From NCBI RefSeq assembly GCF_007004095.1, contig NZ_VHJK01000001.1:1058501-1122500 (forward strand): a stretch of 64,000 nt of DNA, in the 5' to 3' direction. Shown here in pieces: positions 8,544-22,119 of this stretch. Made by a program: the position numbers and the translations under genes. The first letter of the stretch is position 1. Every line of letters starts with the position of its first letter. Source of the DNA: Erythrobacter insulae. Lineage in GTDB: Bacteria; Pseudomonadota; Alphaproteobacteria; Sphingomonadales; Sphingomonadaceae. The notes under the pieces are model-generated. The model saw only the letters and a program-made list of their open reading frames with translations. It had not been told where the DNA came from and did no database searches.

Positions 8544-10682
8544 TTACGCGGGGACGGTAGTGTAGGCGGGATCAGGCGGGGTTGCTGTGTCGCTGTGCAA
8601 TTTGCCGTCCTGCATCACCAATATCCGGTCAGCGGCCGCAATCGTTTCCTGCCGGTGGGCAATGATAATGCGGGTGATGCCCATTGCCCCGATCGCAGCA
8701 TTAACCACCGCTTCGTGTTTCACATCGAGGTGCGCAGTGCCTTCATCCATCAGCAAGACCTTGGGCGCGCGATACAGCGCACGGGCCAGCAAGACGCGCT
8801 GTTTTTGGCCGCCTGACAGGGTCGATCCCATGTCTCCGATCAGCGATTCGTACTGCATCGGCATCCGCGCAATATCTTCGTGGATGGAAGCCGCCACGGC
8901 TGCGCGCACCACGCGCTCCATATCGACTTCGTCATCGAACAGCGCGATATTATCCGCCAGCGATCCGGCAAACAGGCTGTCTTCCTGAAGCACTGCCGCG
9001 ATCTGACGATGAAAACTCTTATAGCCAAAACGGTGCAGCGGGATGCCATCGATCAGGATTTCGCCCGCCTCGGGCTCGACTAGGCCCAGCATAATTTTAA
9101 GCAAGGTCGATTTGCCGCCGCCAGATGGCCCGGTGATGGCCACGTGCTCGCCCGCCTCGATGGACAGATCGACACCATTGAGAACCATCGGATCGCTGGG
9201 TGAATAGCGGTAATACACGTCTTTCAAGGCGATCTTTCCGGTCAGCTCGGTCGCGGCGTCGCTGCCGACGGTAAAGCTGCGATCTTCATCGGTCAGAGCA
9301 ATGTCGGACAAACGCTCCAGATGCAGGCTCAACATTTTGAACTGGATTGCCTGATCGATCAGCGCCGCCGATTTGCCGATAAACTGATTTTTATACGCCA
9401 TGTAGGCGAACACCATGCCGACGCTGAAACCGGCACCCTCAATCACAAAACCGATCGCGAGCCAGATCGCGATGATATTTTCAAGACCGAAAATGAGCAG
9501 GTTGGCGGTGTTCTGCCAGATCCCGATGCGTGACAGGCGAACATTGGCGTTGACCGAATCCGTCAGCCGGGTCTGCCACAGGGCATGGCGCAGGGATTCC
9601 CGCCCGAACAACCGCAAAGTGACCATGCCGCGCAGCGATTCGATCAGCGTGGTCTGCTCTTTACCGCTGGTGATAATGCTCGCTTCTTGCGCTTCGCGTT
9701 GGAACGAGAAGGTGACGAAGCGGGCCACCGCATACAAAGCAAAGGCGATGATTGCGATAAAGGCCAAAAGCGCGCTGTAATAAAACATCACGGCAAGCGT
9801 GAAGATCGCCATGATCCCGTCCACCAAGGCCGCAACGGCGCCTTGAGTCAGCAGGTTCTGAATCGGAACAATCGATTGAAACCGCGACAGAATATCACCG
9901 GTATGGCGTTTTTCGAACCATTCGATCGGCAAACGGAACAAACGCCGCGCAATATTGGTCGCGAGCGCATATCCGACACTGGTCCCGGCATTCAGCAAGA
10001 CAAAAGATCGCAGCAGGCTGGCAACGACATTGATGGCCGTAAACAGGCCAAAACCAAGCGCCAGCACCGTCAGCAAATCACCATCAAGCGCGGGCAGCGC
10101 GCTATCGATGGCGACCTGCATATAATACGGGGAAGCGAGCACGAACGCCTGAAGCACCACGCTGAGCAGGAGGACCTGCGCCAGCGCCCGTTTGAGACCG
10201 GTCATGCTTTGCCACAATTGCGACAGGTGCAACCGTTCGCGCAGCGATTGACGGTTGAAATCGTTGCTGGGCCGCAATTCCAGCGCGACACCGGTAAAAT
10301 GGTCCGACACTTCCGACAGGCTGAGCCAGTTTGATCGCCCGTCAGGATTATGGATCAAGGCCTTGCCGCCTTTGATCGCTTCGATCACGACATAATGGTT
10401 CATGTCCCAGTGCAGAACCGCCGGCATGTGCAGATTGCCGAGCTCTTCCAGCGGCAGTTTGACCGCGCGCGGGGTCAGGCCAATTTGATCAGCAAGGTTG
10501 ATGAGCGCCCGTAAAGGAGCACCGCGCATGGATGGAGAATACCGCCGCCGCATAGTCCCCAGATCGACGTCAAAGCCGTAGAAATTGGCCACCATCGTAA
10601 GGCTGGCGAGACCACATTCTGCCACTTCGGTCTGGCGCACCAGACGCACCCGGCTGCGGGTCATGAAACCTAGATCAAGCAC
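8544..10682 (-). CDS. Peptidase-containing ABC exporter (C39, bacteriocin/microcin type)
   Basis: Inner-membrane exporter that cleaves double-glycine leaders and exports the peptide. N-terminal C39 peptidase: Gln17, Cys23 in EVAECGLASL, His96 in DMNHYVVIE and Asp114 in HNPDG, so the catalytic set is intact. A six-helix ABC membrane domain follows (about residues 160-440), then the ATPase with Walker A GPSGGGKSTLL (near 520), signature LSGGQKQRVLL (near 622) and Walker B LLMDEGTAHLD (near 642). A GTG at 10682 is six bases after the HlyD-type gene; an ATG at codon 7 also works. Six small leader-peptide genes upstream on the same strand are its obvious substrates. The outer-membrane TolC-like channel is not encoded here. 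Confidence 0.93.
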   Translation of the reverse strand: MLDLGFMTRSRVRLVRQTEVAECGLASLTMVANFYGFDVDLGTMRRRYSPSMRGAPLRALINLADQIGLTPRAVKLPLEELGNLHMPAVLHWDMNHYVVIEAIKGGKALIHNPDGRSNWLSLSEVSDHFTGVALELRPSNDFNRQSLRERLHLSQLWQSMTGLKRALAQVLLLSVVLQAFVLASPYYMQVAIDSALPALDGDLLTVLALGFGLFTAINVVASLLRSFVLLNAGTSVGYALATNIARRLFRLPIEWFEKRHTGDILSRFQSIVPIQNLLTQGAVAALVDGIMAIFTLAVMFYYSALLAFIAIIAFALYAVARFVTFSFQREAQEASIITSGKEQTTLIESLRGMVTLRLFGRESLRHALWQTRLTDSVNANVRLSRIGIWQNTANLLIFGLENIIAIWLAIGFVIEGAGFSVGMVFAYMAYKNQFIGKSAALIDQAIQFKMLSLHLERLSDIALTDEDRSFTVGSDAATELTGKIALKDVYYRYSPSDPMVLNGVDLSIEAGEHVAITGPSGGGKSTLLKIMLGLVEPEAGEILIDGIPLHRFGYKSFHRQIAAVLQEDSLFAGSLADNIALFDDEVDMERVVRAAVAASIHEDIARMPMQYESLIGDMGSTLSGGQKQRVLLARALYRAPKVLLMDEGTAHLDVKHEAVVNAAIGAMGITRIIIAHRQETIAAADRILVMQDGKLHSDTATPPDPAYTTVPA

Positions 10683-10688
10683 TGTGTG

Positions 10689-11921
10689 TTACCGCTTTCG
10701 TACTGCGAAGAGCGGCTCAAACAGCCACTCAATCAGGGTTTGGTCTTCGGTGATAATCCGGGCAGTCAGGCTCATGCCGGAAACCAGTTTTTCCTCGCGG
10801 CCAAATGCGGAAATCTGCGTTTCCTGCAGCTCCACGACGACCGGATATACCGAAATGATTGCGCCATTGGCCGCCTGCTGGCTGATCGCGCTGGCCGCCA
10901 CTGTCTGAATGGTGCCGGTGACTGTACCAAACCGCTGATAGGGGAAGGCATCAATCGCCAGGCGCACTTCCTGTCCGACTTTCACAAACCCGATCGCCTG
11001 GCTCGGCACGTTAAGCTCCGCGCGCAATTTCGCCCCTGCGGGAATGACTGTCATTACCTGAGTTTGCGGATTCACGCGCTGGCCGCTGCGGATGGTGAGC
11101 GCGGTGACGGTGCCTGCGGTCGGCGCGCTCAATGCATAAGAACGCGCACCGGCATTACCAGCCGCTTGCTGCGCCACTTGCGCGCGGGTGGCGGCGATAT
11201 TGGCCGCATCACTTTGCGCCTGCGCGGTGACACTGGCGGCGCTGTTCGACAATTCGGCCAACGTTGCGCGGCGCGCGGTGAGCGCTTGCTGCAACTGGGA
11301 AAGCTGTTGCTGGCGTGAGACCAGAACATCTTCGCGCCCTCGCAGATCCTGTTTGCTGATAAATCCGCGCTCGGCGACTTCGCGCGCGCGGCCAAGATCC
11401 TGATTGGCGGAGCTGACCAGATTGCGCTGCAACGAAATCTGCGACTGCAATTGGGAAATTTCCGAACGCAGTCCCGCTGCCTGCACGGTAATCTGGCTGC
11501 GCTGAGCCGCGGCGGATTGCTGTGCGGCGGTCAATTGCGCCGCGAGGCTGGCGTCCTGCTGCGCGATGGCCTGCTGTGTCAGCGCGGCGGCAGATGGCCC
11601 GGTGACACTGGATTCTTCGGCCCGGACGCTAACAAGCGTAGCCCCCTCTTCGACCTGCTCGCCTTCCTCGACAAACACTTCGGTGATGACCCCGCCGCGG
11701 GTCGGGATAATCGCCGCCACGCCTTTGTCCGGCACAATCGTACCCGTCACGGTTTCCACTCGGGAATAGGTCGCCAGCGAAAGGAATACGCCTGCGATAA
11801 GCAGGGTCGCAAAAAGCAGATAGCCGATCACCTGCCACGGCATCGGGATCGCAATCGCCACCTCACCGGAAAGGCGATCTTTTTTCTGATTTAGAACTTC
11901 TGATCGAAACAGCTGCGTCAT
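10689..11921 (-). CDS. HlyD/CvaA-type membrane fusion protein
   Basis: Periplasmic adaptor that links the C39 ABC exporter to an outer-membrane channel. A short cytosolic start (MTQLFRSEVLNQKKDRLSG) is followed by one membrane helix (about residues 31-50, VIGYLLFATLLIAGVFLSL), a biotinyl-lipoyl half-motif, a long Ala/Gln-rich coiled-coil hairpin (about 115-250), then the second lipoyl half (SAPTAGTVTALTIRSGQRV) and a beta-barrel domain ending AVRKR. The order matches microcin exporters such as colicin V CvaA. It precedes the ABC gene by six bases and follows the peptide genes, so it probably belongs to the same unit. Confidence 0.9.
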   Translation of the reverse strand: MTQLFRSEVLNQKKDRLSGEVAIAIPMPWQVIGYLLFATLLIAGVFLSLATYSRVETVTGTIVPDKGVAAIIPTRGGVITEVFVEEGEQVEEGATLVSVRAEESSVTGPSAAALTQQAIAQQDASLAAQLTAAQQSAAAQRSQITVQAAGLRSEISQLQSQISLQRNLVSSANQDLGRAREVAERGFISKQDLRGREDVLVSRQQQLSQLQQALTARRATLAELSNSAASVTAQAQSDAANIAATRAQVAQQAAGNAGARSYALSAPTAGTVTALTIRSGQRVNPQTQVMTVIPAGAKLRAELNVPSQAIGFVKVGQEVRLAIDAFPYQRFGTVTGTIQTVAASAISQQAANGAIISVYPVVVELQETQISAFGREEKLVSGMSLTARIITEDQTLIEWLFEPLFAVRKR

Positions 11922-12066
11922 GCGGCTTTCGATACCTCCCCGATTGATCGTTCAACGCGCCGATAAGCGCGCTCTAGACCGTCATTTAGTCAGGGTCTGC
12001 ATTGAATAGGAATAGTGCAAGTGAGTTAGGCAAGCTCGCTGTTTGATCATCATTTTTACCAGCAGG

Positions 12067-12243
12067 TCAATTTGGTCGGTTCTGCTTTTTCAAGGTTGCG
12101 GCGATATATCCCACAACCGCGCCAACAACGCAGCCAACGATCAAAGGCAGCGGGAGGTCGATACCTGTCGACAAAGAAATCAGAGCCAGGGCTAAGCTGG
12201 TAACAAAGCCTATAAATGCGCACGATAATATCTGCGTTTTCAT
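12067..12243 (-). CDS. Small two-helix membrane protein, possible immunity protein
   Basis: A 58-residue protein starting at the ATG at 12243 with GAGG nine bases before it. It consists almost entirely of two hydrophobic segments (about residues 4-23 and 30-49, the second being GCVVGAVVGYIAATL) followed by a basic KKQNRP tail. It has no double-glycine leader. It lies directly after the glycine-zipper peptide gene and before the HlyD gene, on the same strand. Bacteriocin immunity proteins are often this size and topology, so that role is plausible but only inferred. I do not recognise the family. Confidence 0.55.
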   Translation of the reverse strand: MKTQILSCAFIGFVTSLALALISLSTGIDLPLPLIVGCVVGAVVGYIAATLKKQNRPN

Positions 12244-12263
12244 CTGTAATACCTCAATTTGGC

Positions 12264-12301
12264 TCTCTGCCATAAGGCCGTCTAAAGCCTTATGGCAGAG
12301 A
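12264..12301 (-). terminator. 15-bp perfect hairpin after the glycine-zipper peptide gene
   Basis: Arms 12264-12278 and 12287-12301 (CTCTGCCATAAGGC and its complement, plus one A-T pair) pair perfectly around an 8-base loop. It begins 9 bases after the stop of the 12310 peptide gene. No T-run follows on either strand, so it could be a factor-dependent terminator, a mRNA stabiliser or a processing site rather than a simple intrinsic terminator. Confidence 0.6.
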
Positions 12302-12309
12302 AGATCCGA

Positions 12310-12579
12310 TTAGTCGTTCCAGGTGGTGATAATAGCAGTCACCGCGCCGCCTACTGCGCCGCCAACTGCGCCTGCGGCTGCACCGATCCCTGCGCCAGCT
12401 GGCCCACCAGTCAATCCACCGCCGATTGCGCCGCCGACTGCGCCGCCAACAGCACCGCCAACAGCTGCTGCGCCAACTTCACCCCAGTCTACCGCGCCAT
12501 TGACGAGGTCGATGTCGCTGAACGTCAGTTCTTGGATGTTGCCTTCGAGTGCAAAATCAGTTTGGTTAAGATAAGACAT
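12310..12579 (-). CDS. Double-glycine-leader precursor with glycine-zipper core (peptide E)
   Basis: An 89-residue precursor starting at the ATG at 12579, behind AAAGGAG at good spacing. The leader ends ELTFSDIDLVNGA (residue 29), matching the pattern shared by the six precursors in this island. The predicted mature part of 60 residues starts VDWGEVGAAAVGGAVGG and is a run of GxxxG/AxxxG small-residue motifs to near the C-terminal TTWND. Such glycine zippers are typical of membrane-inserting class II bacteriocins. It is followed by a perfect hairpin and by the possible immunity gene. The longer frame to 12612 ignores the strong ribosome site. Not a modified peptide as far as can be seen, since no modifying enzyme is near. 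Confidence 0.75.
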   Translation of the reverse strand: MSYLNQTDFALEGNIQELTFSDIDLVNGAVDWGEVGAAAVGGAVGGAVGGAIGGGLTGGPAGAGIGAAAGAVGGAVGGAVTAIITTWND

Positions 12580-12724
12580 TGTAGTTCTCCTTTGAAAAGC
12601 CGGCGCGGGCAACCGGCATGATCTTTCCCGCCTTCAAAAGCGCAGGGTTGCCCCCTCGAAAATTCTTGACCTTGCGCGCAGCCTCGTAAGGCTTCGGCGC
12701 AGGCTAATTTTTGCTTGTTTTGCT

Positions 12725-12761
12725 GATGTTCTGGCAGCACCGATTGTGCGGCCAGAACATC
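12725..12761 (-). terminator. Long hairpin between peptide genes D and E
   Basis: Arms GATGTTCTGGC (12725-12735) and GCCAGAACATC (12751-12761) are a perfect 11-bp inverted repeat; four more pairs (GCAC 12737-12740 with GTGC 12746-12749) extend the stem past one mismatch. It lies 56 bases after the stop of the Pro-rich peptide gene. No T-run follows on the minus strand, so termination is uncertain; a processing or stability element is also possible. Confidence 0.5.
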
Positions 12762-12816
12762 GAGCTCACCCCAACTCAGTTACGACACATTGATCGATCG
12801 AGCTGGTGTTCCCTTG

Positions 12817-13005
12817 TTACCAAGGCAGCGGCATCGGATAGGGCTGCGGGATCGGATAAGGGCTCGGGAACGGTGAGGGTTCCGGAAACGGGCTGGGCTG
12901 CGGGTATGGGAAGGGCAGCGGATATGGTCCTGGGATGGGATCAGGGAAAGGGTACGCTATCGCACCGCTTACAGTATCGAGTTCGTGATCAGTTAAAGCT
13001 TTCAT
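12817..13005 (-). CDS. Double-glycine-leader precursor with strictly alternating X-Pro core (peptide D)
   Basis: A 62-residue precursor starting at the ATG at 13005 behind GGAG. Its leader MKALTDHELDTVSGA fits the shared pattern, so C39 cleavage after Gly14-Ala15 is predicted. The mature part is Ile-Ala, then 22 consecutive X-Pro dipeptides (X = Y F D I G Y L F Y Q S F E S F S Y I Q Y M L), then a final Trp. It carries no Lys or Arg, unlike known proline-rich antimicrobial peptides. Such a chain should form a stiff polyproline-II rod. It sits in line with the other precursor genes and the exporter. I know no described family of this type; the reading frame is supported by leader, ribosome site and repeat periodicity together. 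Confidence 0.75.
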   Translation of the reverse strand: MKALTDHELDTVSGAIAYPFPDPIPGPYPLPFPYPQPSPFPEPSPFPSPYPIPQPYPMPLPW

Positions 13006-13047
13006 GATGTGTCTCCATTGTGTGTGCAGCAGGGTTATCGTCCTGCC

Positions 13048-13075
13048 TTTCGGCGCACGCGACGCGCCGCCGAAA
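13048..13075 (-). terminator. Hairpin after peptide gene C
   Basis: Arms TTTCGGCG (13048-13055) and CGCCGAAA (13068-13075) pair perfectly around a GC-rich 12-base loop. It starts 18 bases after the stop codon of the 13094 peptide gene and lies before the Pro-rich peptide gene. There is no clear T-run on the minus strand. Confidence 0.4.
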
Positions 13076-13093
13076 TCTTGAGAAAATCGGGGC

Positions 13094-13267
13094 TTATTCG
13101 CCCATCATAGTGTCAACGGCGTCTTCGATCGCGCTGCCGACAATGCCTGCGGCAGCGGCCACAGTGTCGCTCGCACCGAGGGCTTTTGCGACTGTGTAGC
13201 CAATGACGAATCCATCTTCGCCAGCGCCGCTCACTTCGGTAATTTCTTCTGTATTCAGAGTTTTCAT
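13094..13267 (-). CDS. Double-glycine-leader precursor, helical small-residue core (peptide C)
   Basis: A 57-residue precursor. Of the two nearby ATGs, 13267 is chosen because GGAG lies seven bases before it; the one at 13273 would leave only one base. The leader MKTLNTEEITEVSGA fits the shared pattern. The 42-residue mature part starts GEDGFVIGYTVAKAL, contains the small-residue stretch TVAAAAGIVGSAIEDAV and ends DTMMGE; it has the look of an amphipathic or membrane-seeking helix with a net negative charge. It may pair with the glycine-zipper peptide E, as in two-peptide bacteriocins, but that is a guess. Confidence 0.7.
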   Translation of the reverse strand: MKTLNTEEITEVSGAGEDGFVIGYTVAKALGASDTVAAAAGIVGSAIEDAVDTMMGE

Positions 13268-13310
13268 CGTCATTCTCCACTTTGGTTTGGACGGGCACAT
13301 CTCGCCCGCT

Positions 13311-13339
13311 TTCCGAAGCGCTGTATTGCGCTTGCGGAA
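13311..13339 (-). other. Hairpin in the 325-base gap upstream of peptide gene C
   Basis: TTCCGAAGCGC (13311-13321) pairs with GCGCTTGCGGAA (13328-13339) with one bulged G and a 6-base loop, giving 11 pairs. The gap 13268-13592 also holds the hairpin at 13549-13573 and no supported gene: a 34-codon basic frame on the minus strand lacks a ribosome site and a leader motif. The element lies about 45-70 bases before the start of peptide gene C, so it would sit in its 5' leader or promoter region. Confidence 0.4.
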
Positions 13340-13548
13340 TTCCTGGTTGTGATCTGCGCACAGCGTGCGAGACCGCGAAAATCGTGGGTGAGACCAGTGC
13401 GATAAAAGCTCTTTTGGCTTTACCGCCTCGCTCTCGCGTCAACTCCACCGCCGCGCCGGGTATGCTTGGACATGGACAAAGGATTAGCCCGCGGGCGAAC
13501 CACTCCAGTGCGAATGGAAACCATGCGCGCTGTGCTGTTCTTGTGCAG

Positions 13549-13573
13549 GCTGCGACCCTTTTCCCGTCGCAGC
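13549..13573 (-). terminator. Hairpin after peptide gene B
   Basis: GCTGCGAC (13549-13556) and GTCGCAGC (13566-13573) pair perfectly around a 9-base loop. It starts about 20 bases after the stop codon of peptide gene B. No T-run follows on the minus strand. Confidence 0.4.
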
Positions 13574-13592
13574 GATGGAGCGGCGCTGCCGG

Positions 13593-13775
13593 TTAGATTG
13601 ACATATCAATCTCAATGGTTGGGCCGGCAGGACCAAGATCGAGAAGGTCTGGCAAGCCGCTGGTGCCGGGCATGTCGCCATGTTCGGTGCAGCCCTTGCC
13701 ATCAGGACCTTCGGTTACGCCGCCACAGGCGAGCGCGATTTCATATGTGTTCAAGTTACGGATTGACTGGGTCAT
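13593..13775 (-). CDS. Double-glycine-leader precursor (peptide B)
   Basis: A 60-residue precursor with an AAAGGAAG ribosome site before the ATG at 13775. The leader MTQSIRNLNTYEIALACGG ends in a true Gly-Gly. The 41-residue mature part starts VTEGPDGKGCTEHGDMPG, holds one Cys and a SGLPDLLDLGPAGP segment, and is clearly acidic. The GLPD segment is also seen in peptide A, which hints at common origin of the two. It is the second gene of the row, 83 bases after peptide gene A on the same strand. Confidence 0.7.
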   Translation of the reverse strand: MTQSIRNLNTYEIALACGGVTEGPDGKGCTEHGDMPGTSGLPDLLDLGPAGPTIEIDMSI

Positions 13776-13858
13776 ATTCGGCTTCCTTTGGATTGAGCCT
13801 GGATTGATGAGACCTCGGCACTTGATCTTGTGATCGCCTGCAAAGGCTCGAATTCATC

Positions 13859-14029
13859 TCACGGCTGGTTATGCTGATTGCGCATCAGACGTTCGAGCGT
13901 GTCGGCATTGGTTTGCTCCGCCAGATCGATCAGATCCTGAAACGTCGGCTCATCAGGCAAGCCGCCAACGGCGCCGCACACTTGTTCGATTTCACTAAGC
14001 GCGAGCGCTTTCACCTGTGCATCGTTCAT
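13859..14029 (-). CDS. Double-glycine-leader precursor, 56 codons (peptide A)
   Basis: A 56-residue precursor, easily missed because it is so short. The ATG at 14029 is preceded by GGAGAAGACAG. The leader MNDAQVKALALSEIEQVCGA fits the shared pattern with the predicted cut after Gly19-Ala20. The 36-residue mature part starts VGGLPDEPTFQDLIDLAEQ and ends RNQHNQP; it reads as an acidic amphipathic helix. It is the first gene of the row that leads to the exporter, and a predicted promoter and the CTAG array lie just upstream, so it is probably the promoter-proximal gene of the operon. Confidence 0.7.
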   Translation of the reverse strand: MNDAQVKALALSEIEQVCGAVGGLPDEPTFQDLIDLAEQTNADTLERLMRNQHNQP

Positions 14030-14093
14030 CTGTCTTCTCCTACAATCAGATACCAGCCGCTTGCTGATGCATTGAATGTCGACGATTCAGAAA

Positions 14094-14122
14094 TTTATAC
14101 AATAGATACAATGCTCTAGGAC
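14094..14122 (-). promoter_or_regulatory. Predicted promoter of the peptide operon
   Basis: On the minus strand a TATAAA box (14094-14099) lies in a locally AT-rich stretch. With a 17-base spacer, the -35 position falls at 14117-14122 (GTCCTA), a poor match to the sigma-70 -35 box that overlaps the first CTAG of the array. A poor -35 box beside an array is what an activator-dependent promoter would look like. The predicted start is near 14087, giving a leader of about 58 bases before peptide gene A. Confidence 0.45.
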
Positions 14123-14189
14123 GCATAACCTAGACGGATCAAGCTAGTCGGATCGCGCTAGACCGGGCGGGCTAGTGCGCGCGTGCTAG
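14116..14189. repeat. Array of six CTAG tetramers at exact 14-bp spacing
   Basis: CTAG occurs at 14116, 14130, 14144, 14158, 14172 and 14186, each exactly 14 bases from the next, with G just before it in the last four. The ten bases between them are not conserved. CTAG is normally rare in bacterial DNA, so six in fixed phase cannot easily be chance. The array lies in the gap between the peptide row (minus strand) and the response regulator gene (plus strand). It most likely binds a protein cooperatively; the NarL-type regulator encoded next to it is the obvious candidate, but this is inference. Confidence 0.8.
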
Positions 14190-14270
14190 AACAGGGTAAT
14201 AGTGTCGATGTGCTATGGCCTGATCGCCGCAACAGGTTCAGGATTGTGACAATTGCAGGAGTTGCACGAT

Positions 14271-14915
14271 TTGAGAGTTCAGCAGCAAAATACCAAAGCC
14301 CCGACCAGGATGCTGGTGGCCGACGATCATCCCATTTTTCGGGATGGCGTGGCGGCTATTATAAAGCAGATCGATGATGGCATCATGATCGAACACGCTG
14401 GTACCTATGACGAGCTGATCGAAGTGGCGCGGAGTGGGAGCGATCCTCAGCTTTTCCTGCTCGATTTGCGGTTCCCTGGGATGGATATTGAACGCGCAGT
14501 TCCCGAACTGCGCCACAAATATCCGCTGTCATCGATCGTCATTATTTCAATGGCAGATGATCGGCGCTCGACCGAGCACATCATGTCCACCGGCGTTGAC
14601 GGGTTTATCAGCAAGGCTGCCAGCCCGGATCAGATTCGCGAAGGGATCGCTTCTGTAATGGAGGGCGACTTTGTGAATGTCAGCGCGGCGGGCGGATTGG
14701 AAAATGCGCAATCCGTTTCGCAGTTCTCACGGCTCACACCGCGACAGGTCGATGTGCTGCGCGGCATTGCCGAAGGCCATTCCAACAAGCAGATTGCCAA
14801 GGACCTTGGCATTTCACCCTTCACAGTGCGGATCCATGTGTCGGCCTTGCTGCGCGAGTTGAAAGTGGAATCGCGCACGGCCGCTGCCTCGATGGCGACC
14901 AAATACGGTCTTTAA
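14271..14915 (+). CDS. NarL/FixJ-type response regulator
   Basis: Cytosolic DNA-binding regulator of about 214 residues. The receiver domain has the acidic pair in [14 protein letters not shown], the phospho-acceptor Asp near residue 64 in [12 protein letters not shown], and a Lys in ISKAASP. The C-terminal LuxR-type helix-turn-helix starts [20 protein letters not shown] and continues [16 protein letters not shown]. No ATG fits well: a TTG at 14271 lies nine bases after AGGAG and gives a short extension before the receiver; an ATG at 14310 would cut into the first strand. It is flanked by precursor genes on both sides and by the CTAG array, so it probably controls the peptide system together with the kinase at 15303. 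Confidence 0.88.
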
Positions 14916-14940
14916 AAAAAGTCTTGCTCCCACACAAAAA

Positions 14941-14970
14941 AAGGGCCGCTCGAAAGCGGCCCTTCTTTTT
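14941..14970. terminator. Bidirectional intrinsic terminator
   Basis: AAGGGCCGCT (14941-14950) pairs with AGCGGCCCTT (14955-14964) around a CGAA loop, followed by CTTTTT on the plus strand. A run of seven A bases before the stem gives a T-run on the minus strand as well. It can therefore end both the response regulator transcript and the transcript of the converging peptide gene F. Confidence 0.9.
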
Positions 14971-14985
14971 AGGTGCCTGTACGCT

Positions 14986-15153
14986 TTATGGGATTTGCGT
15001 ATGATCAGGCTCGCCAAACTGGGGAGGCTCATCGCCGAGGGAAATGGGCCGGCGCAGCGGGCACCAAATGTCCCACCAAGGGCATGCGCCACCGCCTGCA
15101 ATTTCTTCGATTTCAGAAGTGTTCAACGGTACAATTTTACCGGAAGCAATCAT
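14986..15153 (-). CDS. Double-glycine-leader precursor with Trp-rich two-cysteine core (peptide F)
   Basis: A 55-residue precursor. The ATG at 15153 is chosen because GGAG lies six bases before it; three earlier in-frame starts (15159, 15165, 15204) lack this. The leader ends PLNTSEIEEIAGG. The 34-residue mature part starts GACPWWDIWCPLRRP, so two cysteines enclose a PWWDIW hexapeptide, and it continues with an acidic Pro-rich tail ending HTQIP. A disulfide ring of eight residues is plausible. It is separated from the other five precursor genes by the response regulator gene, so it is probably transcribed separately, and it ends at the bidirectional terminator. Longer-frame residues upstream show no leader features. 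Confidence 0.72.
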   Translation of the reverse strand: MIASGKIVPLNTSEIEEIAGGGACPWWDIWCPLRRPISLGDEPPQFGEPDHTQIP

Positions 15154-15175
15154 TATCATCTCCATGTCCAAAATT

Positions 15176-15205
15176 ATTGGCTCTCCATGATCCGATTGAG
15201 CCAAT
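15176..15205. promoter_or_regulatory. Inverted repeat upstream of peptide gene F, possible operator
   Basis: ATTGGCTC (15176-15183) and GAGCCAAT (15198-15205) form a perfect 8-bp inverted repeat with 14 bases between. It starts 23 bases upstream of the peptide F start codon, where a promoter or operator would be expected. No clear -10/-35 pair is recognised. Confidence 0.35.
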
Positions 15206-15257
15206 GATCACAACCTGACCTAAAATGATGGGCTACGCACTAGCTCCCTTGCACTAT

Positions 15258-15294
15258 TCGGAAGAAAAATTGTGGGTCGGAAGAAAATTGTGGG
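15258..15294. repeat. Tandem direct repeat of 18-19 bp
   Basis: TCGGAAGAAAAATTGTGGG (15258-15276) is followed at once by TCGGAAGAAAATTGTGGG (15277-15294), differing only by one A. It lies between the peptide F promoter region and the stop codon of the sensor kinase gene. Its role is unknown; a slippage duplication or paired protein-binding sites are both possible. Confidence 0.7.
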
Positions 15295-15302
15295 ATTTTC
15301 GA

Positions 15303-17507
15303 TTAACGCTCGCCAACCCGCAGAGACATAATGGCAGAACGCAGCTCGGCTGCGCGCACTGGCTTGGACAGGACGAGATCGGGGATGTTTGGCAAACTGT
15401 CGCGGATCACGTCGGAGGGATGACCCGAAACAATAATCAGGCGCTTTCTGCTGCTTTTGACCCGCTTCAATTCTTCGTGACGGCCGGCAAGCGTATCTCC
15501 GTTCCCGAAGTCAAAATCGCTCAGGAAGATATCGCACTCTGGCAGCTCAGTTGGGAAATGGCCAAAGGAGGTAACAGCGCATCCCCATTGCTCCAGCAAC
15601 CTCGCGGTTGATTTTAGCGTCTCGACATCATCATCGGCCAGTACGACGCGCAGGCCAGAAAGCGGCAGGCGACGAACCTTTGGCTCTTCGCTGCTCTCCC
15701 GCGTGGTATCAACCGTTCGCAGGCCCTTGATCGAAGTGACGGTCCCTTTTCCCTCTTGCGAACTCAGCACGAATTCCAGATCGAGCATTCGCACCAGCCG
15801 ATTCACAATCGCCAGGCCCAGACCTTTATTGTCCGTGGCAAGGCTCGATTTATTGGACGCACGGTAGAACTCTGTTTGAACGTGCTTGAGATCAGACCGG
15901 GAAATGCCCTTGCCATTGTCGATCACATAAAGCGCAGCGCGCGCGCCCTGCCGGCGACAACCGACTACAACTTTGCCGCCCGGCGAATACTTGATCGCAT
16001 TGGACACAAGGTTTTGAAGCATCGTCCCGATCAGCGCTCGGTCCGTCTTAATCACAAGGTCGCACGGGACCAGCCGCAGATCGACCCCGGTTTGTTCTGC
16101 AACGAGCCCATTCTGACCATCAATTTCTGCCAACAGCTCGTTTACGGAAACTGGGCCGATATGCTTCTGCAACGTCCCGCTCTCAATCGCGGCGACATCC
16201 AGCAAGGTGCGGAACATGCGGCTCGCATTGTCAACCGACCATGTAATTTTGGAGACGATCTCCGATTGATCGGCTGAAAGCCCGGTTTGCGAAAGCCGTT
16301 CAGATAGCAAACCAATGGCATGGATGGGTTGACGCAAATCGTGACTTGCCTGCGCCAGAAAGCGGGATTTTGTCTCTGCGGCGCTGCGATAGGTCTTTAC
16401 GATTTCGCGTCCGCGCATCCACACTTTGCCAAACGCCAGTATAACAATCAGGAACACACCTTGTGATGTAAACTGGAATATCAGTTCTGGCTCCAGCAAC
16501 GCAGTGCTGACCAACAACAACGCAAAGCTGCCCATGGCAAACCAGCGTCCCAAAGGCCGGCGTATGAACGTCCACGCAAATACGCCCGCCAACCCGACCA
16601 GGAACGCAGGAAACCAGCCGATATTGACAGGAGGACCGCGATTGAGGGTTTGCGCCGCCATCAAATTGGCGACCCCGCGTGACGTGTAGGGATTGCCTGG
16701 CGTCGCAAGAGTATCACGCGCCAGGTTATCCATGAACGATATGATGACCGATTTTCCCTTCAAATCTATCGCATCAAAATCGCCAGCTACAATCTGAGCC
16801 GCGTTCAATGTAGGGATCGAAGCAGGGTCGTATCCAAGATCAACATTGAAGCGATTGGATAAAGGGGCAGCGCCTTTAGACAAAACCTGGGCGGCAGACG
16901 GCAACAGATCACCGTCGACTGGAACAGAATACCAAGATTCCAACGGTGCACCCATGGGCGTCGGGATCAATACCATTGCAACCGGCTTGACGAGGCCTCG
17001 CACGCCTTGGTCCAATTGATCGGATCGCTCGGTATAATCGCCTGCGACACGATTGGGGTCGCTAAATGTCAAGTCGATCATTTCGGCTTCATTGAGCGGG
17101 ACCTCCCAATAAACAGGCAAAGAGGTTTCGATCAAAGCTTGCCGAAGCTGTGCAGCGTCTTTCTCGCTATCGTTCCCGAAATACTGCCTCGCGATCACGA
17201 TGGTGCGGGGTTTAGATCTGGCCGCCGCCGTGATGACCTTAGCCAGATCTGCTTTGGTCCACGAATTGCGGCCAAGTGTAGCAAAAGTCTCGTCATTGAT
17301 GGTGATGACGACACCATCTCCATCATAAGGTTTTTCGGTAAATTGGGCCGAGACACTCTGATGAAACCAGTCGAATGGCGCGAATAAGAGGTTATGACCG
17401 CTCAGACCGCCGGTGATGCCGAAAAACGCAACGAGCAGACCCAGAAACAGAAGCTCGCCCTTAGAGGGGCGCCTGAGCAATGATGGTTTGGTCGTAATTT
17501 CCTGCAT
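15303..17507 (-). CDS. CHASE2-domain hybrid sensor histidine kinase with C-terminal receiver
   Basis: A 734-residue inner-membrane sensor. One membrane helix (about residues 19-38) precedes an extracytoplasmic CHASE2 domain (about 45-285), followed by three closely spaced helices (about 297-375). Then come a HisKA domain with His near 390 in SHDLRQPIHAIGLL, an HATPase domain (LQNLVSNAIKYSPGG, DNGKGIS, GLGLAIVNRL) and, from about residue 617, a receiver domain with LADDD, the acceptor Asp in FLSDFDFGNGD and Lys in LSKPV. The partner NarL-type regulator is the next gene but one. The gene ends only 150 bases from peptide gene F. CHASE2 ligands are mostly unknown. Alternative: it could serve other regulators too. 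Confidence 0.9.
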   Translation of the reverse strand: MQEITTKPSLLRRPSKGELLFLGLLVAFFGITGGLSGHNLLFAPFDWFHQSVSAQFTEKPYDGDGVVITINDETFATLGRNSWTKADLAKVITAAARSKPRTIVIARQYFGNDSEKDAAQLRQALIETSLPVYWEVPLNEAEMIDLTFSDPNRVAGDYTERSDQLDQGVRGLVKPVAMVLIPTPMGAPLESWYSVPVDGDLLPSAAQVLSKGAAPLSNRFNVDLGYDPASIPTLNAAQIVAGDFDAIDLKGKSVIISFMDNLARDTLATPGNPYTSRGVANLMAAQTLNRGPPVNIGWFPAFLVGLAGVFAWTFIRRPLGRWFAMGSFALLLVSTALLEPELIFQFTSQGVFLIVILAFGKVWMRGREIVKTYRSAAETKSRFLAQASHDLRQPIHAIGLLSERLSQTGLSADQSEIVSKITWSVDNASRMFRTLLDVAAIESGTLQKHIGPVSVNELLAEIDGQNGLVAEQTGVDLRLVPCDLVIKTDRALIGTMLQNLVSNAIKYSPGGKVVVGCRRQGARAALYVIDNGKGISRSDLKHVQTEFYRASNKSSLATDNKGLGLAIVNRLVRMLDLEFVLSSQEGKGTVTSIKGLRTVDTTRESSEEPKVRRLPLSGLRVVLADDDVETLKSTARLLEQWGCAVTSFGHFPTELPECDIFLSDFDFGNGDTLAGRHEELKRVKSSRKRLIIVSGHPSDVIRDSLPNIPDLVLSKPVRAAELRSAIMSLRVGER

Positions 17508-18059
17508 CAGACGTCGTCGCCCTCACACCATTTGATTTGTTCGGTTCGCTCGCCGGTCCGCTAGCAGATAAGCGCGCTGGCGATCAAAATCTGGACGACT
17601 CGCAAGGCCCTGTCATGCGGTCAGGACGCAGGGCCGCTCCCCTGTGTGCAAAGCAGGGCCGGTGCAAAATCGCCATAGGTCAGATGAACTATTGGCTGGC
17701 TGGCGAGCGCAATGTCGGCCGCAGATGCTTTTGTCGAAGGGCTTGAGAGTTCCGTCGGGCCGCGGCGCAATCGAGGTAGGGTAAGCTAACCCATTGTGCC
17801 AAATTGGGCCGACTCCCCCCGGTGTCGCGAAACCACTTCCATAAAGTAAATTTTACGTTAACTTACATCTTTGGGTGATCAGGTGATTCGCTAGAAAGTG
17901 AACGTCCTGGTTTTTTGGGGGGATTAGAGAAAAGTCCTGAAAAGGGGTTCAAACCCCCAAATCATCCACGCTCCTTAAATGGAGCGTACAGCGAGGTCGC
18001 ATTCGTGCGCTGACGGAAACGTCGGCAAAGACTTGCTAAGAATGAATAAGGACTACATC
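17508..18059. other. 552-base gene-free region upstream of the pilin gene
   Basis: No supported gene. It holds an AT-rich block with short palindromes (GTAAATTTTAC and GTTAAC, about 17846-17862) and, further on, a GGGG/CCCC hairpin (17944-17957) and a perfect 7-bp hairpin ACGCTCC/GGAGCGT with a TTAAAT loop (17968-17987). The last two would lie in the 5' leader of the pilin transcript. The kinase promoter should also lie here, on the other strand. No confident sigma-70 boxes were recognised. Confidence 0.5.
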
Positions 18060-18605
18060 ATGAAAAAGATTGTAATTGCAGCTGCTGCAACAGGCCTAAT
18101 CGCGTCTCCGGCATTTGCCGATGACAACGACAGCCAAGACTTCGAGATCACCGCAAACATTCAGCAAGAATGCAGCGTTGAAGATCCCGACAATGTCAAT
18201 TTTGGCACAATCTCGATCGACGAAGCTCCTGGTGCAGGCGCGCTTCAGGTAACCCAGGGCCGCACCACTCTGCGTCAAGATGTATGGATCAGCTGCAACT
18301 ACGGTGCAGACATGGCCATGACCAGCGGCCCGATGACCACAGCTGAAATCAATGACGGACCAGATGCCGGCGATTTCACCGATACCATTCACCTGCGTAT
18401 GGGCATCACCGCATCTGACGGCACAGCATTCAACAGAATGTTCTTCGACACCAAAACCAAAACTGGTGATTCCAAGACAAATGCCGATGCATTCCATGAT
18501 AATGCGGAAATCGCGGTTGTGTTCAACAAAGACGATCTGGACGGCAAGCGTCCACTCGCCGGTGACTACTCCGCTGTTGCAACTCTCTCGGTTGGTCCTG
18601 TTTAA
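18060..18605 (+). CDS. Major pilin-like protein, spore coat U / Csu type
   Basis: A 181-residue exported subunit. The ATG at 18060 follows AAGGA eight bases before it. Signal peptide about residues 1-20 (MKKIVIAAAATGLIASPAFA). The mature part has the spore-coat-U pattern: an early FEITANIQQECSVEDPDNVNFGT strand with a first Cys, a second Cys in WISCNYG, and a closing SAVATLSVGPV strand that would serve as pilus donor or groove edge. It is the first gene of a pilin - chaperone - usher - tip row and is followed by a strong terminator, which would give excess pilin transcript over the assembly genes. A longer frame to 17979 has no signal peptide. Confidence 0.85.
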   Translation: MKKIVIAAAATGLIASPAFADDNDSQDFEITANIQQECSVEDPDNVNFGTISIDEAPGAGALQVTQGRTTLRQDVWISCNYGADMAMTSGPMTTAEINDGPDAGDFTDTIHLRMGITASDGTAFNRMFFDTKTKTGDSKTNADAFHDNAEIAVVFNKDDLDGKRPLAGDYSAVATLSVGPV

Positions 18606-18632
18606 TCGGACTTAATTGAAAGCAGAATCAGA

Positions 18633-18663
18633 AAGGGGAGGGGGAGGCCTCTCTCCCCTTTTT
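18633..18663 (+). terminator. Intrinsic terminator after the pilin gene
   Basis: AAGGGGAG (18633-18640) pairs with CTCCCCTT (18653-18660), with further G-C and G-T pairs inside, and a run of T bases follows (18659-18663). Partial read-through would lower expression of the chaperone and usher genes relative to pilin. Confidence 0.8.
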
Positions 18664-18765
18664 GTTCGGCGGCCGCAATCCGCCAAGGTTTTGTTGTCAT
18701 TTTCTGTTGTCTTGAGCAGCAGCATCGACACGAATTCCTGCGTCATATGGGCTGGGGGGCCACAC

Positions 18766-19500
18766 ATGATACGTTTTATTTCGGTTTTACTGGCTGCGCT
18801 AGCGCTCTTGCTCAATCCGACTGTTTCGCAGGCGGCACGCGTGTCTCCTATGATTGTCGAACTCGAGCCTATGGGCCGAAGCTCTGTCGCCCGGATAGAA
18901 TTATCCAACGATGGCGATCGCGACATTCCTTACGAAGTGCGCATGATGCTCGGCGAAATCAGTGAAGATGGCGAGCTGACCTTCACTCCCGCTGATGACA
19001 AATTTCTGGTTTTCCCCGCGCAAGCGATTGTCGAGGCAAAATCCCAACAAGTTTTCCGCATTCAATATGTGGGCGAGCCCGAGCTCGCTCAGTCTGAAGT
19101 CTACTACATGTCGATTCAGCAGGTACCGGTCGCTTTCGAGGGATCGGGATCTCAGGTTCAGGTGGTCGTCAATTACAATGTTCTGGTCAACGTTGTGCCT
19201 GAAGGCACCTCTGCGCAAGCAGACGTGGAGGATATCCGCGTTGCCATTGAAGAGGGCGTCCCGGGGATCAAGCTCAGCCTGAGCAACACCGGCTCACGCT
19301 ATTTCCTTGCAGGGATGGCAGATTGGAAAATTACGGCCACCGCAGAAGATGGCACCCCATTCCTGATCGACTACAAAAAGGATGAAATGACGCGCAAAAT
19401 CGGCGTTGGGGTGGTTGGCCCCGGCCGCGCGCGCAATCTTTTCATTCCCACAGACGTAACGCTCGTCGAAGATAGTATTCGTATCGAAGTAGAGCCCTGA
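18766..19500 (+). CDS. Periplasmic pilus chaperone (PapD-like)
   Basis: A 244-residue periplasmic chaperone that holds pilin subunits by donating a strand until they reach the usher. Signal peptide about 1-23 ending SQAARV. Typical chaperone features are RVSPMIVELEP at the mature N-terminus, an IPYEVRMMLGEIS strand, the FLVFPAQAIVEAKSQQVFRIQY segment with the conserved Pro-containing loop, and a smaller second Ig-like domain (GIKLSLSNTGSRYFL). The ATG at 18766 is chosen because the signal peptide starts there. It is the second gene of the row and lies 3 bases before the usher gene. Confidence 0.9.
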   Translation: MIRFISVLLAALALLLNPTVSQAARVSPMIVELEPMGRSSVARIELSNDGDRDIPYEVRMMLGEISEDGELTFTPADDKFLVFPAQAIVEAKSQQVFRIQYVGEPELAQSEVYYMSIQQVPVAFEGSGSQVQVVVNYNVLVNVVPEGTSAQADVEDIRVAIEEGVPGIKLSLSNTGSRYFLAGMADWKITATAEDGTPFLIDYKKDEMTRKIGVGVVGPGRARNLFIPTDVTLVEDSIRIEVEP

Positions 19501-19503
19501 TCG

Positions 19504-22119
19504 ATGCAACCGGGGGGCAAGACAAAATTTCTGAGCCAGTGCAGCGCCGTTTCCTTGGGCTGCATCCTTAGCCAGATCTACGTGATGCCAGTGCAGGCGC
19601 AAATCACGACGGCAGATCTCAATCGGGCAAGCTTGGCCGCGATCAAGAGTGGGCGGCCGCTCGAGGTATTCCCCGCCTCGAACACGGAACGAGCGAGCAA
19701 CCTCAAGAGTTTGCAAGAGATCCAGGATCTGGCTGATCAGACCGGTGCTGCGGGACAAAGAGAAACGCCGCGCACACTCAATTTCTCGGTTCCATTGGTG
19801 TTCAATGGCCGCGTCCTGGGTGACGTGATGATAGAAATCATCCCCGGCGAGCCTGCATCTTTTGAGACAGTTTCCCTTAGATCCGAATTGATCCCGCTGT
19901 TGAATGATCGAGGCATTGATAAGCTCGATCAGACAATCTCGGGCCGCCAATACATCTCCGGAACCGAATTGTCAGAGGCGGGGTTCCAGATCAGTTTTGA
20001 TGAAAGCAGGCTGGAAGTAGCCGTCACTTTCATTGCGGGCGAATACAGGCCGGTATCATCATTGGGGCGCGAAGATTACGAAAGCGCGCAGCAGACCCTG
20101 CCATCGATCCAGCCAGCCGAATTCAGCGCCTATCTCAATCTCAATACGAACTTCGATTATTCCAGCCAGGAAGGTCTTCTCACACCTGAAATATTCCTGC
20201 TTGGCGCAGCACGTTTCAAAGATGTGGTCGTGGAACTCGATGGTGCTTTTACCGAACAATTCGGAGACGGTTATCGCTTTTATCGCAGAAGTCTGCGGGC
20301 GATTTACGATCAACCTGAACATGATCGACGCTTCACAGCCGGTGATCTCAGATTGACCACCATCCCGTTGCTGCAGACCCCTTTTGTAGGCGGTGTCGCA
20401 GTCGAAAAACGGCGGCAGATATTCAACCCGTTTCAGCCGGTTTCCCGGCTTGGCGGTCAGGAAGTGTTTTTGGACAGCCGATCAACGGTTGATGTGCTGA
20501 TCAATGGCGCGCAGTACCAGACGTTCCAATTGGATGCCGGGCGCTATGATCTCGCGAACCTTCCGCTGCAAGCCGGCTCGAACAATGTCGAGCTAAGGAT
20601 CAGAGACTCGGCTGGTCGCCAACAGATTGTGGACCTGAACTATTTTTTTGAGCCACTCGGCCTTCCGGCTGGCGAAGAAGAATACGCTTTAAGCGCTGGC
20701 TTTATCGCTAGAGATTTGAACTTTGAGCCTGAGTATACCGGAGATCCGGTGGCCGTCGGATATTACCGCCGTGCCCTCTCTGAAAACTTGATCCTGGGCG
20801 GGGCTTTTCAGGTATCGCAGGACACTCAAACCTTCGCCGCTGAGGCCTCTTTTGTCCCTCAAGTCATCCCCGGCGCATTCGATGTCCAAGTCGCGACGAG
20901 TACGGGCGCCGGAACCGGGCTGGCTGCGCGAGCAAGCTATCGTCTCAGAAGCGGCGACAGTTTCGCAAACCGCAAACAGCTCAGCCTCACTATTGATTAT
21001 GAAAGCGCGAGCTTCAGATCCGTCGGAGAGATTTTTCAAACCAATTTCGACCTTCTGAATCTGACCGCGAGCTACACTCAGGGCTTTTCGGAAAGGACTT
21101 TCGCAAGTGCCGGAGCATCCTACACCAGGCGTGGAGGAGGGCAGACAGATAGATCCCAGATATTCGTTGATGTCGCACACAGGCTTGATGATCGTTTAAG
21201 ACTCACTGCCGGCGTGGAGTATGGCGACGACGGGTTCTCCAGACAGAAATTTGGCGCGCGCTTGGGAGTGGTCATGTTGTTTGGCGGGCGGAACCGTTTG
21301 AACGCCGATTACCGCAGCCGGACCGCCACAACCCGCGCGACATTCTCACGCGGAAGCGAGGACCGGGTCGGATCTTTTGGCTACGATATCGGCTTTAACG
21401 ATAGCCGCGGTTCAACCGGAGTTGACGCCAATGTCGACTATGTCAGCAACAGGTTCGACGCACGGGCCTCTGTTTTCAGTGAAGGAAACGGCTTCGGCAA
21501 CATCACGAATAGTCAAAGAGCCCGTTTGCAAGTCGGCACATCAATCGCATTTGCGGATGGCGTATTCGGCATTGGGCGCCCGATTTCAGATTCATTTGCG
21601 GTCGTGGCGCCGCACTCATCCTTAAAAGATCGGAACGTCATTTCAGGGCGCAACCTCAGCCGTAATGACTATTACGCCCGCAGCGGCTTGTTTGGCGGCG
21701 CAGTTCAGGCCGATCTCAGCTCATATACGGTTCAAGACATCCAATACGATGTCGACGGCCTGAATCCGGGCTATGATATTGGCGATGGCCTTGCCCGTGT
21801 CGATCCCCCATTCCGCAGCGGTTACAAAATTGTTGTCGGAAATGATCGTTTCGTAAGCACCTTGGGCACGCTGTTTTTGGGCGACAAGCCCGCCAAACTT
21901 GTCTCCGGCACAATTACCGCGATCGACGACGAAGGCTTTGAACCCCTGCCCTTCTTCACCAATTCAGTAGGCCGGTTTGGCGCCATCGGTTTGGCTCCGG
22001 GTAAAAATTATCTCGTTTCAATTCCGGCTCTGGAACGGGAATTCACCATAGCAGTGCCCGCCGACAACACTGGCCTCTACCGGCTTGGCGAGGTAGTTAT
22101 ACCTGCCGTTAGCGATTAG
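19504..22119 (+). CDS. Outer-membrane pilus usher (FimD/Csu-type)
   Basis: An 871-residue outer-membrane channel that receives chaperone-subunit complexes and secretes the growing pilus. A signal sequence (about residues 1-33, ending VQAQ) is followed by an N-terminal domain, a long beta-barrel region of alternating strands (about 150-750, for example LRLTAGVEYGDDGFSRQKF), a plug segment near GAQYQTFQLDAGRYDLANLP, and a C-terminal domain ending RLGEVVIPAVSD. The length is in the usual range. The segment DVLINGAQYQTFQLDAGRYD is the typical usher strand motif. It follows the chaperone at once and precedes the putative tip protein by nine bases. Confidence 0.9.
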   Translation: MQPGGKTKFLSQCSAVSLGCILSQIYVMPVQAQITTADLNRASLAAIKSGRPLEVFPASNTERASNLKSLQEIQDLADQTGAAGQRETPRTLNFSVPLVFNGRVLGDVMIEIIPGEPASFETVSLRSELIPLLNDRGIDKLDQTISGRQYISGTELSEAGFQISFDESRLEVAVTFIAGEYRPVSSLGREDYESAQQTLPSIQPAEFSAYLNLNTNFDYSSQEGLLTPEIFLLGAARFKDVVVELDGAFTEQFGDGYRFYRRSLRAIYDQPEHDRRFTAGDLRLTTIPLLQTPFVGGVAVEKRRQIFNPFQPVSRLGGQEVFLDSRSTVDVLINGAQYQTFQLDAGRYDLANLPLQAGSNNVELRIRDSAGRQQIVDLNYFFEPLGLPAGEEEYALSAGFIARDLNFEPEYTGDPVAVGYYRRALSENLILGGAFQVSQDTQTFAAEASFVPQVIPGAFDVQVATSTGAGTGLAARASYRLRSGDSFANRKQLSLTIDYESASFRSVGEIFQTNFDLLNLTASYTQGFSERTFASAGASYTRRGGGQTDRSQIFVDVAHRLDDRLRLTAGVEYGDDGFSRQKFGARLGVVMLFGGRNRLNADYRSRTATTRATFSRGSEDRVGSFGYDIGFNDSRGSTGVDANVDYVSNRFDARASVFSEGNGFGNITNSQRARLQVGTSIAFADGVFGIGRPISDSFAVVAPHSSLKDRNVISGRNLSRNDYYARSGLFGGAVQADLSSYTVQDIQYDVDGLNPGYDIGDGLARVDPPFRSGYKIVVGNDRFVSTLGTLFLGDKPAKLVSGTITAIDDEGFEPLPFFTNSVGRFGAIGLAPGKNYLVSIPALEREFTIAVPADNTGLYRLGEVVIPAVSD

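Follow-up and report, generated by a model that had tools for sequence, protein, structure and literature searches.

Why is one of six predicted secreted peptides encoded directly behind a sensor kinase, apart from the other five? The question is raised by a locus of Erythrobacter insulae that lies in a 64,000-nucleotide stretch of contig NZ_VHJK01000001.1 (assembly GCF_007004095.1, positions 1,058,501 to 1,122,500 of the forward strand), part of a 2.99 Mb genome. We call this whole stretch the window and give coordinates in its own numbering. The minus strand carries, in order, a CHASE2 hybrid histidine kinase, the peptide precursor gene P6, the precursor genes P5, P4, P3, P2 and P1, a gene for a 58-residue protein, a HlyD-type adaptor and a C39 peptidase-containing ABC exporter; a NarL-type response regulator is encoded on the plus strand between P6 and P5. 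An earlier sequence-only reading had listed these parts, and all are present: a C39 exporter with Cys23, His96 and Asp114, HlyD, six precursors with double-glycine (GG) or Gly-Ala (GA) leaders, a small protein of two-helix type, the CHASE2 kinase and NarL. Gram-positive bacteria are the textbook case of bacteriocin autoinduction by peptides, while Gram-negative quorum sensing mostly uses small molecules. Our reading is that the CHASE2 kinase senses P6 as a pheromone and that NarL drives the peptides and the exporter, making the locus a self-regulated secretion system; we put its probability at about 0.5.

An exporter scan of named genomes gave 37 loci. Eight have orthologues of both the kinase and NarL, 11 are distant or truncated, and 18 have an exporter 63-79% identical to ours with no kinase or NarL match, as judged within the stretch available (at least 5.9 kb upstream of HlyD in 16 of them). 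Six further loci with the kinase-NarL module came from additional genomes, which with the window (WIN) makes 15 module loci (WIN, L035, L055-L059, L069, L071, L078, L149-L153); L033 and L036, which duplicate L058 and L055, were not counted. L055 is the locus of Qipengyuania sp. S6317L1 and L058 that of Porphyrobacter sp. TH134. Since four of the 15 (L056, L057, L071 and L150) form one clade, three members of which were compared and have exporters about 99% identical, the set represents about 12 lineages. Strong matches to a profile of the kinase's sensor (E < 1e-90) occur in 5 of 114 genomes of the genus and 7 of 397 of the family, our genome being included in both; a further genome, G022, gave only a weak match, and a contig end cuts its kinase. 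Across the class, a module search at E 1e-45 found our genome only among 385.

P6 (14986..15153, minus strand) encodes a 55-residue precursor with a GG leader and a predicted mature part of 34 residues, GACPWWDIWCPLRRPISLGDEPPQFGEPDHTQIP. It stands apart from the P5-P1 unit, beyond NarL and behind the kinase, with an operator-like dyad of its own. A GG-leader P6 open reading frame (ORF) lies directly downstream of the kinase, on the same strand and convergent to NarL, in all 15 module loci. L152 has two copies, giving 16 in all; their start codons were assumed to be TTG in L055, L069, L149 and L151, and GTG in L058. The mature parts vary, with recurring cores such as WWDIWCPLRR, GIFDWWPFGKPPW, SIWDWWRRRPRPP and ILNWMPPWR. 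Tryptophan is found in 16/16 mature P6 peptides (8.4% of residues) versus 9/41 peptides encoded between NarL and HlyD (0.7% of residues), counted with the same script, the latter set leaving out at least three more such peptides (L059, L069, L153), one of which has Trp. The number of these peptides in cis varies from 0 to 6 per locus, and is zero in the four loci of the L056-type clade. Among the 18 exporter relatives without a kinase or NarL match, only one encodes a candidate peptide containing at least two Trp, which suggests that P6 tracks the kinase and not the exporter. The idea that all six peptides are under one control thus stands in part: there are signs of common control, but the six are not equivalent, and P6, the kinase's constant companion, is probably the signal.

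Could P6 simply be one more toxin? In one possible explanation, to which we give clearly less weight, the locus is a multi-bacteriocin cluster of the Cdz or class II microcin kind whose kinase responds to something other than a peptide, for example envelope stress or starvation, and in which P6 is a toxin that has become fixed by the kinase. There is some precedent, with the microcin MccPDI produced under low osmolarity through EnvZ/OmpR and also under autoinducer AI-2 (PMC10233263). Against it stand the constancy of P6 in the face of a changing set of other cis peptides, and its following the kinase rather than the exporter. Nor does the gap between kinase and NarL hold any recurrent second ORF across the module loci that could serve as a P6 immunity gene. 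A terminator-like hairpin lies between the convergent NarL and P6 genes (14941..14964, plus strand), although the consensus scan that picked it gave 8 sites in 6.1 kb versus 7.1 in shuffled sequence.

The ratio of nonsynonymous to synonymous substitution rates (dN/dS) in the L056 clade is 0.13 for P6, 0.15 for the sensor, 0.18 for the kinase's receiver, 0.065 for the kinase core, 0.007 for NarL, 0.022 for HlyD and 0.020 for the exporter. P6 is thus a genuine gene, whose rate of change is close to that of the sensor and also to that of the receiver.

The signs of common control are inverted repeats of the form TAG-N10-CTA. All nine of those in the 64 kb window are at this locus. Between NarL and the peptide operon lies a tandem array with CTAG every 14 bp (CTAG-N10-CTAG, 14102..14189), containing 5 exact dyads versus 0.07 expected in the window. 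A single dyad, ATAG-N10-CTAT, follows in the same divergent region (14199..14216), and a dyad occupies this NarL slot in 15/15 loci. Upstream of P6 there is ATAG-N10-CTAG (15240..15257); this slot holds a dyad in 13/15 loci, 71-120 bp before P6, the exceptions being L035 and L151, and such placement is a further point against P6 as a bystanding toxin. Upstream of the kinase gene there is ATAG-N10-CTAT (17675..17692), with a dyad in 9 of the 14 loci where this slot can be tested. Taken together, the three intergenic slots contain 74 dyads in 15,865 bp. The remaining sequence of the module loci has 6 in 282,303 bp, a set of 28 control loci has 14 in 409,004 bp, and 17 exporter loci that lack the module have 13 in 314,172 bp. 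The patterns and slots were defined from the module loci themselves, the slots after the motif had been seen, and overlapping arrays inflate the 74.

Genome-wide, the strict pattern ATAGYNCAN6CTAK has three sites in our genome, at the NarL, P6 and kinase promoters, a partly circular result as the pattern was built from those three sites; its reverse reading matches two places on either strand. With the looser HTAGYNCAN6CTAK a single further site appears, on contig 2; this form gives 4-16 strand matches in ten module genomes (palindromes counted twice, the locus included) versus 0-3 in ten genomes without the module. A triple CTAG array occurs in 5 of the 114 genus genomes, in four of them at this locus. 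The array in genome G077 was set aside: it stands alone between genes, on an 8 kb contig for which no leader peptide is listed. A 10-nucleotide spacing of inverted half-sites is typical of LuxR-type helix-turn-helix (HTH) dimers, and NarL is the candidate binder of these dyads. By sequence, we consider the predicted regulatory wiring well supported.

The additional site leads to a seventh peptide. It lies at 258099-258116 of contig 2 (C2) and ends 74 bp before P7 (L212:2092-2253), a 53-codon GG precursor with a GTG start as called and a mature part predicted as NPEDGQSWYDYLNDRFPGGEWVGNSFFPNGAPEFP. P7 is probably exported as well. Relatives of P7 with a dyad occur in genomes G478 (L226), G113 (L218) and G308 (L224), with 65-83 bp between dyad centre and start; a topA-like gene is common to all four P7 stretches and an era-like gene to three, both named by reading. 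The system had been described as compact, but it extends to another contig, where at least one further GG precursor is preceded by this dyad.

The looser dyad has 54 remote sites, 53 in ten other module genomes and one in our own, and all were examined, in three batches of 20 (picked as near-palindromic), 20 and 14. Under a strict rule, a GG ORF lies within 900 bp downstream of 11/54 remote dyads (5, 5 and 1 by batch) versus 19/1680 random control positions, a result that counts in favour of our reading; under a relaxed rule, applied to the first two batches, the figures are 9/20 and 5/20 versus 82/1680. A looser start rule gave one GG ORF in L200 as well, and none of the four remote dyad sites of genome G136 has one. 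Four of the remote stretches (L193, L197, L198 and L201) share a recurrent orphan family of GG peptides with a Lys-rich leader of about 42-44 residues and the dyad about 530-630 bp upstream; in L198 and L201 the peptide adjoins a gene resembling succinate dehydrogenase flavoprotein.

The proposed receptor is the 734-residue kinase (15303..17507, minus strand), with a CHASE2 domain (40.2 bits, cut-off 26.3), HisKA and HATPase_c domains, His389 and a receiver with Asp664. NarL (14253..14915, plus strand) consists of a receiver and a GerE HTH by Pfam. His389, Asp664 and the phospho-Asp of NarL are invariant in the 14 loci aligned. Over the 36 pairs of nine module loci, mean identity is 40% for the sensor, 48% for the kinase's receiver, 67% for the kinase core, 73% for NarL, 73% for HlyD and 83% for the exporter. 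When pairs are binned by kinase identity, the module sensors are more divergent than those of 49 other CHASE2 kinases in six of the seven bins that both sets fill, namely those spanning 50-90% (28% versus 39% sensor identity in the 55-60% bin, for instance), with the pairs being non-independent and the 80-90 bin holding one module pair. The ligands of CHASE2 domains were called unknown in a 2016 paper (PMC5192318).

In outline, the kinase, P6 and NarL would form a peptide-sensing switch. The C39/HlyD machine, working with a TolC-type channel whose gene lies in another part of the genome, would cut P6 at its GG leader and export it; P6 would build up outside, where the CHASE2 domain would sense it. 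The kinase would then phosphorylate NarL, which would bind the TAG-N10-CTA dyads and the CTAG array and, acting as activator rather than repressor, switch on its own gene and those of P6 and the kinase, the operon of the peptides and exporter, and some GG peptides elsewhere. The remaining peptides would be the products, with activities that may include killing; the most likely role of P1 is that of a Cdz-like toxin acting on membranes, with the 58-residue protein as its immunity factor. We regard P6 as the kinase ligand at about even odds. A fuller version falls slightly short of that: a secreted linear Trp-rich peptide would be the CHASE2 ligand and, through NarL on 14-bp-phased CTAG arrays, would command dispersed GG peptides that use a common exporter, while pheromone and sensor would diversify from species to species.

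Several results weigh against the pheromone reading, as does the way in which the dyad patterns and slots were defined. P6 and sensor do not co-diverge over 11 non-redundant loci (r 0.04, p 0.42), a result that favours the multi-bacteriocin explanation; an earlier correlation over 14 loci (r 0.84) was rejected as the effect of one clade, having vanished once three of four near-identical loci were dropped. The P6 leader does correlate with the sensor in the 11 loci (r 0.45, p 0.007), but about equally with kinase, NarL, exporter and HlyD (r 0.36-0.42), which points to plain relatedness, and we do not use it as support. In the 90-100% kinase bin the module sensors are no more divergent than the controls (85 versus 81). 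The kinase's cytoplasmic receiver diverges almost as much as the sensor (mean identity 48%, dN/dS 0.18 versus 0.15), so sensor divergence need not be driven by a ligand. The predicted sensor structure (mean pLDDT 77.9) has no fold relative at E <=0.001, and its sequence no relative among solved structures at E up to 1; neither search therefore supports peptide binding by CHASE2. In 5 of the 14 testable loci no dyad precedes the kinase, and 43 of the 54 remote dyads have no strict-rule GG ORF, so that the dyad alone is no proof of regulation; one of the 11 that do, L203, looks spurious. P7, too, contains Trp and could share the role of P6. Lastly, we had considered P6 the sole cargo of the L056-type clade and dropped the idea: genome G478 of that clade has P7 in trans, and L057 has a leader-like ORF of 78 residues (2327-2563), 3 kb before the kinase, leaving P6 as the only cargo unsupported in any locus.

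If P6 is the signal, what are P1 to P5? A precursor rule combining a single leader pattern with requirements for a start codon and a ribosome site, applied to the 64 kb window, returned exactly six ORFs, all in this cluster and each preceded by a Shine-Dalgarno-like site. Small genes are prone to over-calling, and one might suspect chance ORFs or a decayed locus. First-order Markov copies (n=300) of the 3.3 kb region yielded a mean of 0.02 precursor ORFs (maximum 1), against the six found; leaders and positions are kept in relatives, the catalytic residues are intact, and P6 has its dN/dS of 0.13 while P1 has dN 0.13 versus dS 1.5. Chance or decay is thus refuted as far as sequence allows, and we give it next to no weight. 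Leader conservation in relatives was also one of the two points on which the sequence-only reading had proposed to stand or fall, and the leaders are conserved.

P1 (12310..12579, minus strand; all of P1-P5 are on this strand) is an 89-residue precursor whose leader ends in NGA, with a 60-residue mature part forming a double glycine zipper; L055 is the only other module locus with a homologue, which is 77% identical. By eye, the mature part has two zipper runs divided by Pro, with Glu in front and the C-terminus TTWND. This fits the published sequence criteria for Cdz-like bacteriocins (60-151 residues, a G[G/A/S] leader end, one or two glycine zippers that Pro or a charged residue borders but does not break, and a short polar or charged C-terminus; PMC5380434). 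Behind it lies the 58-residue protein (12067..12243, minus strand), which by eye has two hydrophobic stretches, and a 36% identical protein lies directly behind the P1 homologue in L055. The two support a toxin-immunity pair on two loci and no more: a search of the 397 family genomes for the 58-residue protein found our own copy only, and the L055 genome is absent from the same-genus genomes of that sample. The immunity factor proposed from the sequence is accordingly plausible for P1, and for P1 only. A Cdz-like P1 with a small hydrophobic protein behind it is what a multi-bacteriocin cluster would contain; under the pheromone reading, the same pair would be a product of the switch.

P2 (12817..13005) is a 62-residue precursor with PxP repeats of Pro, Tyr and Phe in its mature part, and similar Pro-rich peptides occur in L055, L149 and L151. 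These form a family with GG/GA leaders (here, and at L055:7676-7879, L149:9655-9858 and 6030-6236 of the reverse complement of L151) whose repeats recall the proline-rich antimicrobial peptides, a putative resemblance. P3 (13094..13267), with 57 residues, a leader ending in SGA and an Ala/Gly-rich mature part, has tblastn relatives in L055, L059, L151 and L152. P4 (13593..13775), with 60 residues and a mature part predicted to start VTEGPDGKGCTEH, resembles peptides in L035, L058, L059, L078, L152 and L153. P5 (13859..14029), with 56 residues, a leader ending in CGA and an acidic hydrophilic mature part, was found by the precursor rule. The monoisotopic masses calculated for the reduced mature peptides are 4985.53 (P1), 5328.64 (P2), 4028.92 (P3), 4091.90 (P4), 4074.97 (P5) and 3912.85 Da (P6), the last falling by about 2.02 if a disulphide forms.

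The peptides might instead be surface, adhesion or biofilm factors, like EbfG of Synechococcus, under the same circuit. GG proteins required for biofilm do exist (PMC4997328), all six mature peptides are predicted to be acidic (isoelectric point 4.1-4.4), and the Pro-rich P2 and acidic P4 and P5 match no bacteriocin family in Pfam or NCBIfam. A SCPU/chaperone-usher pilus cluster also adjoins the kinase (17979-22119), and related pilus genes lie next to the kinase in L056. These are however the only two of the 15 loci in which pilus genes were detected, as far as their stretches reach, and we rejected the cluster as a part of the system; P1 and its small neighbour, moreover, look like toxin and immunity. 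We consider this explanation unlikely, more so than a multi-bacteriocin cluster, and return to P6 as the signal of a secretion system whose products include a probable toxin.

That system has dedicated export genes, as had been recognised from the sequence. The exporter (8544..10682, minus strand, 712 residues) has C39, ABC_membrane and ABC_tran domains by Pfam, a Walker A motif GPSGGGKS and LSGGQ, and matches the solved bacteriocin transporter 4ry2 and ComA (8hf4) over nearly its whole length by phmmer. Cys23 and His96 are invariant in 14/14 aligned exporters, of which 12 have Asp and two have Glu at position 114; L035, with its exporter cut by a contig end, was left out. The adaptor (10689..11921, minus strand, 410 residues) was identified as HlyD-type by Pfam and NCBIfam. 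No outer-membrane channel gene was seen in the core locus; genome-wide there are 8 OEP-domain matches in 4 open frames, all outside the window. The reported absence of a modifying enzyme is borne out for the core genes by Pfam and NCBIfam searches, the wider flanks having been read only as ORFs.

More distant exporters appear to have other partners. Those about 44% identical (L040-L049) were set aside; in L044 (16198-17109) and L047 (16878-17768) the exporter is followed by a protein of about 300 residues whose leader is of GG type, a different sort of C39 cargo. In Altericroceibacterium (L079:3927-6212), a CHASE2-EAL protein, by Pfam, lies directly behind a 48% identical C39 exporter, another link between CHASE2 and such exporters.

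How does this arrangement compare with known systems? Gram-positive three-component loci of the Pln and Com/Blp types use an HPK10-type multi-transmembrane kinase and a LytTR regulator. Like them, the present locus has a GG-leader peptide beside a kinase and regulator, one exporter for signal and products, and repeated operators at the regulon promoters; unlike them, it has a CHASE2 and HisKA hybrid kinase, a NarL/GerE regulator and a Gram-negative host, with P6 as candidate ligand. A shared operator-like dyad is present at signal, kinase or regulator, and product promoters, in the kinase slot of 9/14 loci only, and binding is predicted. We suggest that the locus works like the Gram-positive signal-kinase-regulator bacteriocin loci, of which a streptococcal example has been described (PMC8545106), built from other protein families.

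Among Gram-negative systems, the Cdz system of Caulobacter crescentus (CdzABCDI) comprises five genes with two toxins, the three-transmembrane protein CdzI and, as described, no kinase (PMC5380434). It shares with the present locus an alphaproteobacterial host, GG/GA-leader glycine-zipper proteins of similar size and the lack of a modifying enzyme. Our adjacent C39 ABC and HlyD genes are candidate counterparts of its type I exporter CdzAB, and the 58-residue protein with two hydrophobic stretches is a candidate counterpart of its small membrane immunity protein. Our locus differs from Cdz in that only one of its six dissimilar precursors is a zipper peptide, and in having a two-component system and an operator array linked to it. 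Class II microcins such as MccV and MccE492 likewise are unmodified GG-leader peptides with C39 ABC and HlyD export genes, and differ from this locus in its several unlike peptides and linked kinase. No class II microcin family matched at its curated cut-off: P3 reached 18.4 bits for MccV (cut-off 27) and 13.7 for E492 (cut-off 50), and the other precursors searched matched none. The best NCBIfam match of the exporter is the NHLP/NHLM exporter TIGR03796, at 466.5 bits well under the cut-off of 853.3, and the six precursors match no NHLP leader family in NCBIfam. To our knowledge, no linked kinase-pheromone-regulator module accompanies the cyanobacterial GG/C39 clusters, whose genomes were outside our searches. 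Those clusters are also Gram-negative, with possible non-toxin roles (PMC3140520; EbfG/PteB, PMC4997328), and several GG peptides per C39 exporter have already been reported there (PMC3140520). The number of peptides, which together with their diversity and type of control had been called unfamiliar in sphingomonads, is thus not new in itself. Among the matches listed from the open-licence full-text literature, nothing concerned a peptide pheromone of a CHASE2 kinase or GG-peptide loci of sphingomonads.

Whether and how quorum sensing regulates further microcins is still to be explored, according to a review (PMC10233263). The present locus offers a defined set of candidates, namely a signal of 34 residues, a receptor, a regulator, an operator and a regulon, and so makes both that question and the question of the CHASE2 ligand testable. 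The operator also serves as a probe for genome mining, having led to orphan GG peptides, P7 included, that an exporter-centred search would miss. If our reading is true, Erythrobacter insulae and its relatives would possess a Gram-negative peptide pheromone system, a kind of signalling well known from Gram-positive bacteria and not from Gram-negative ones.

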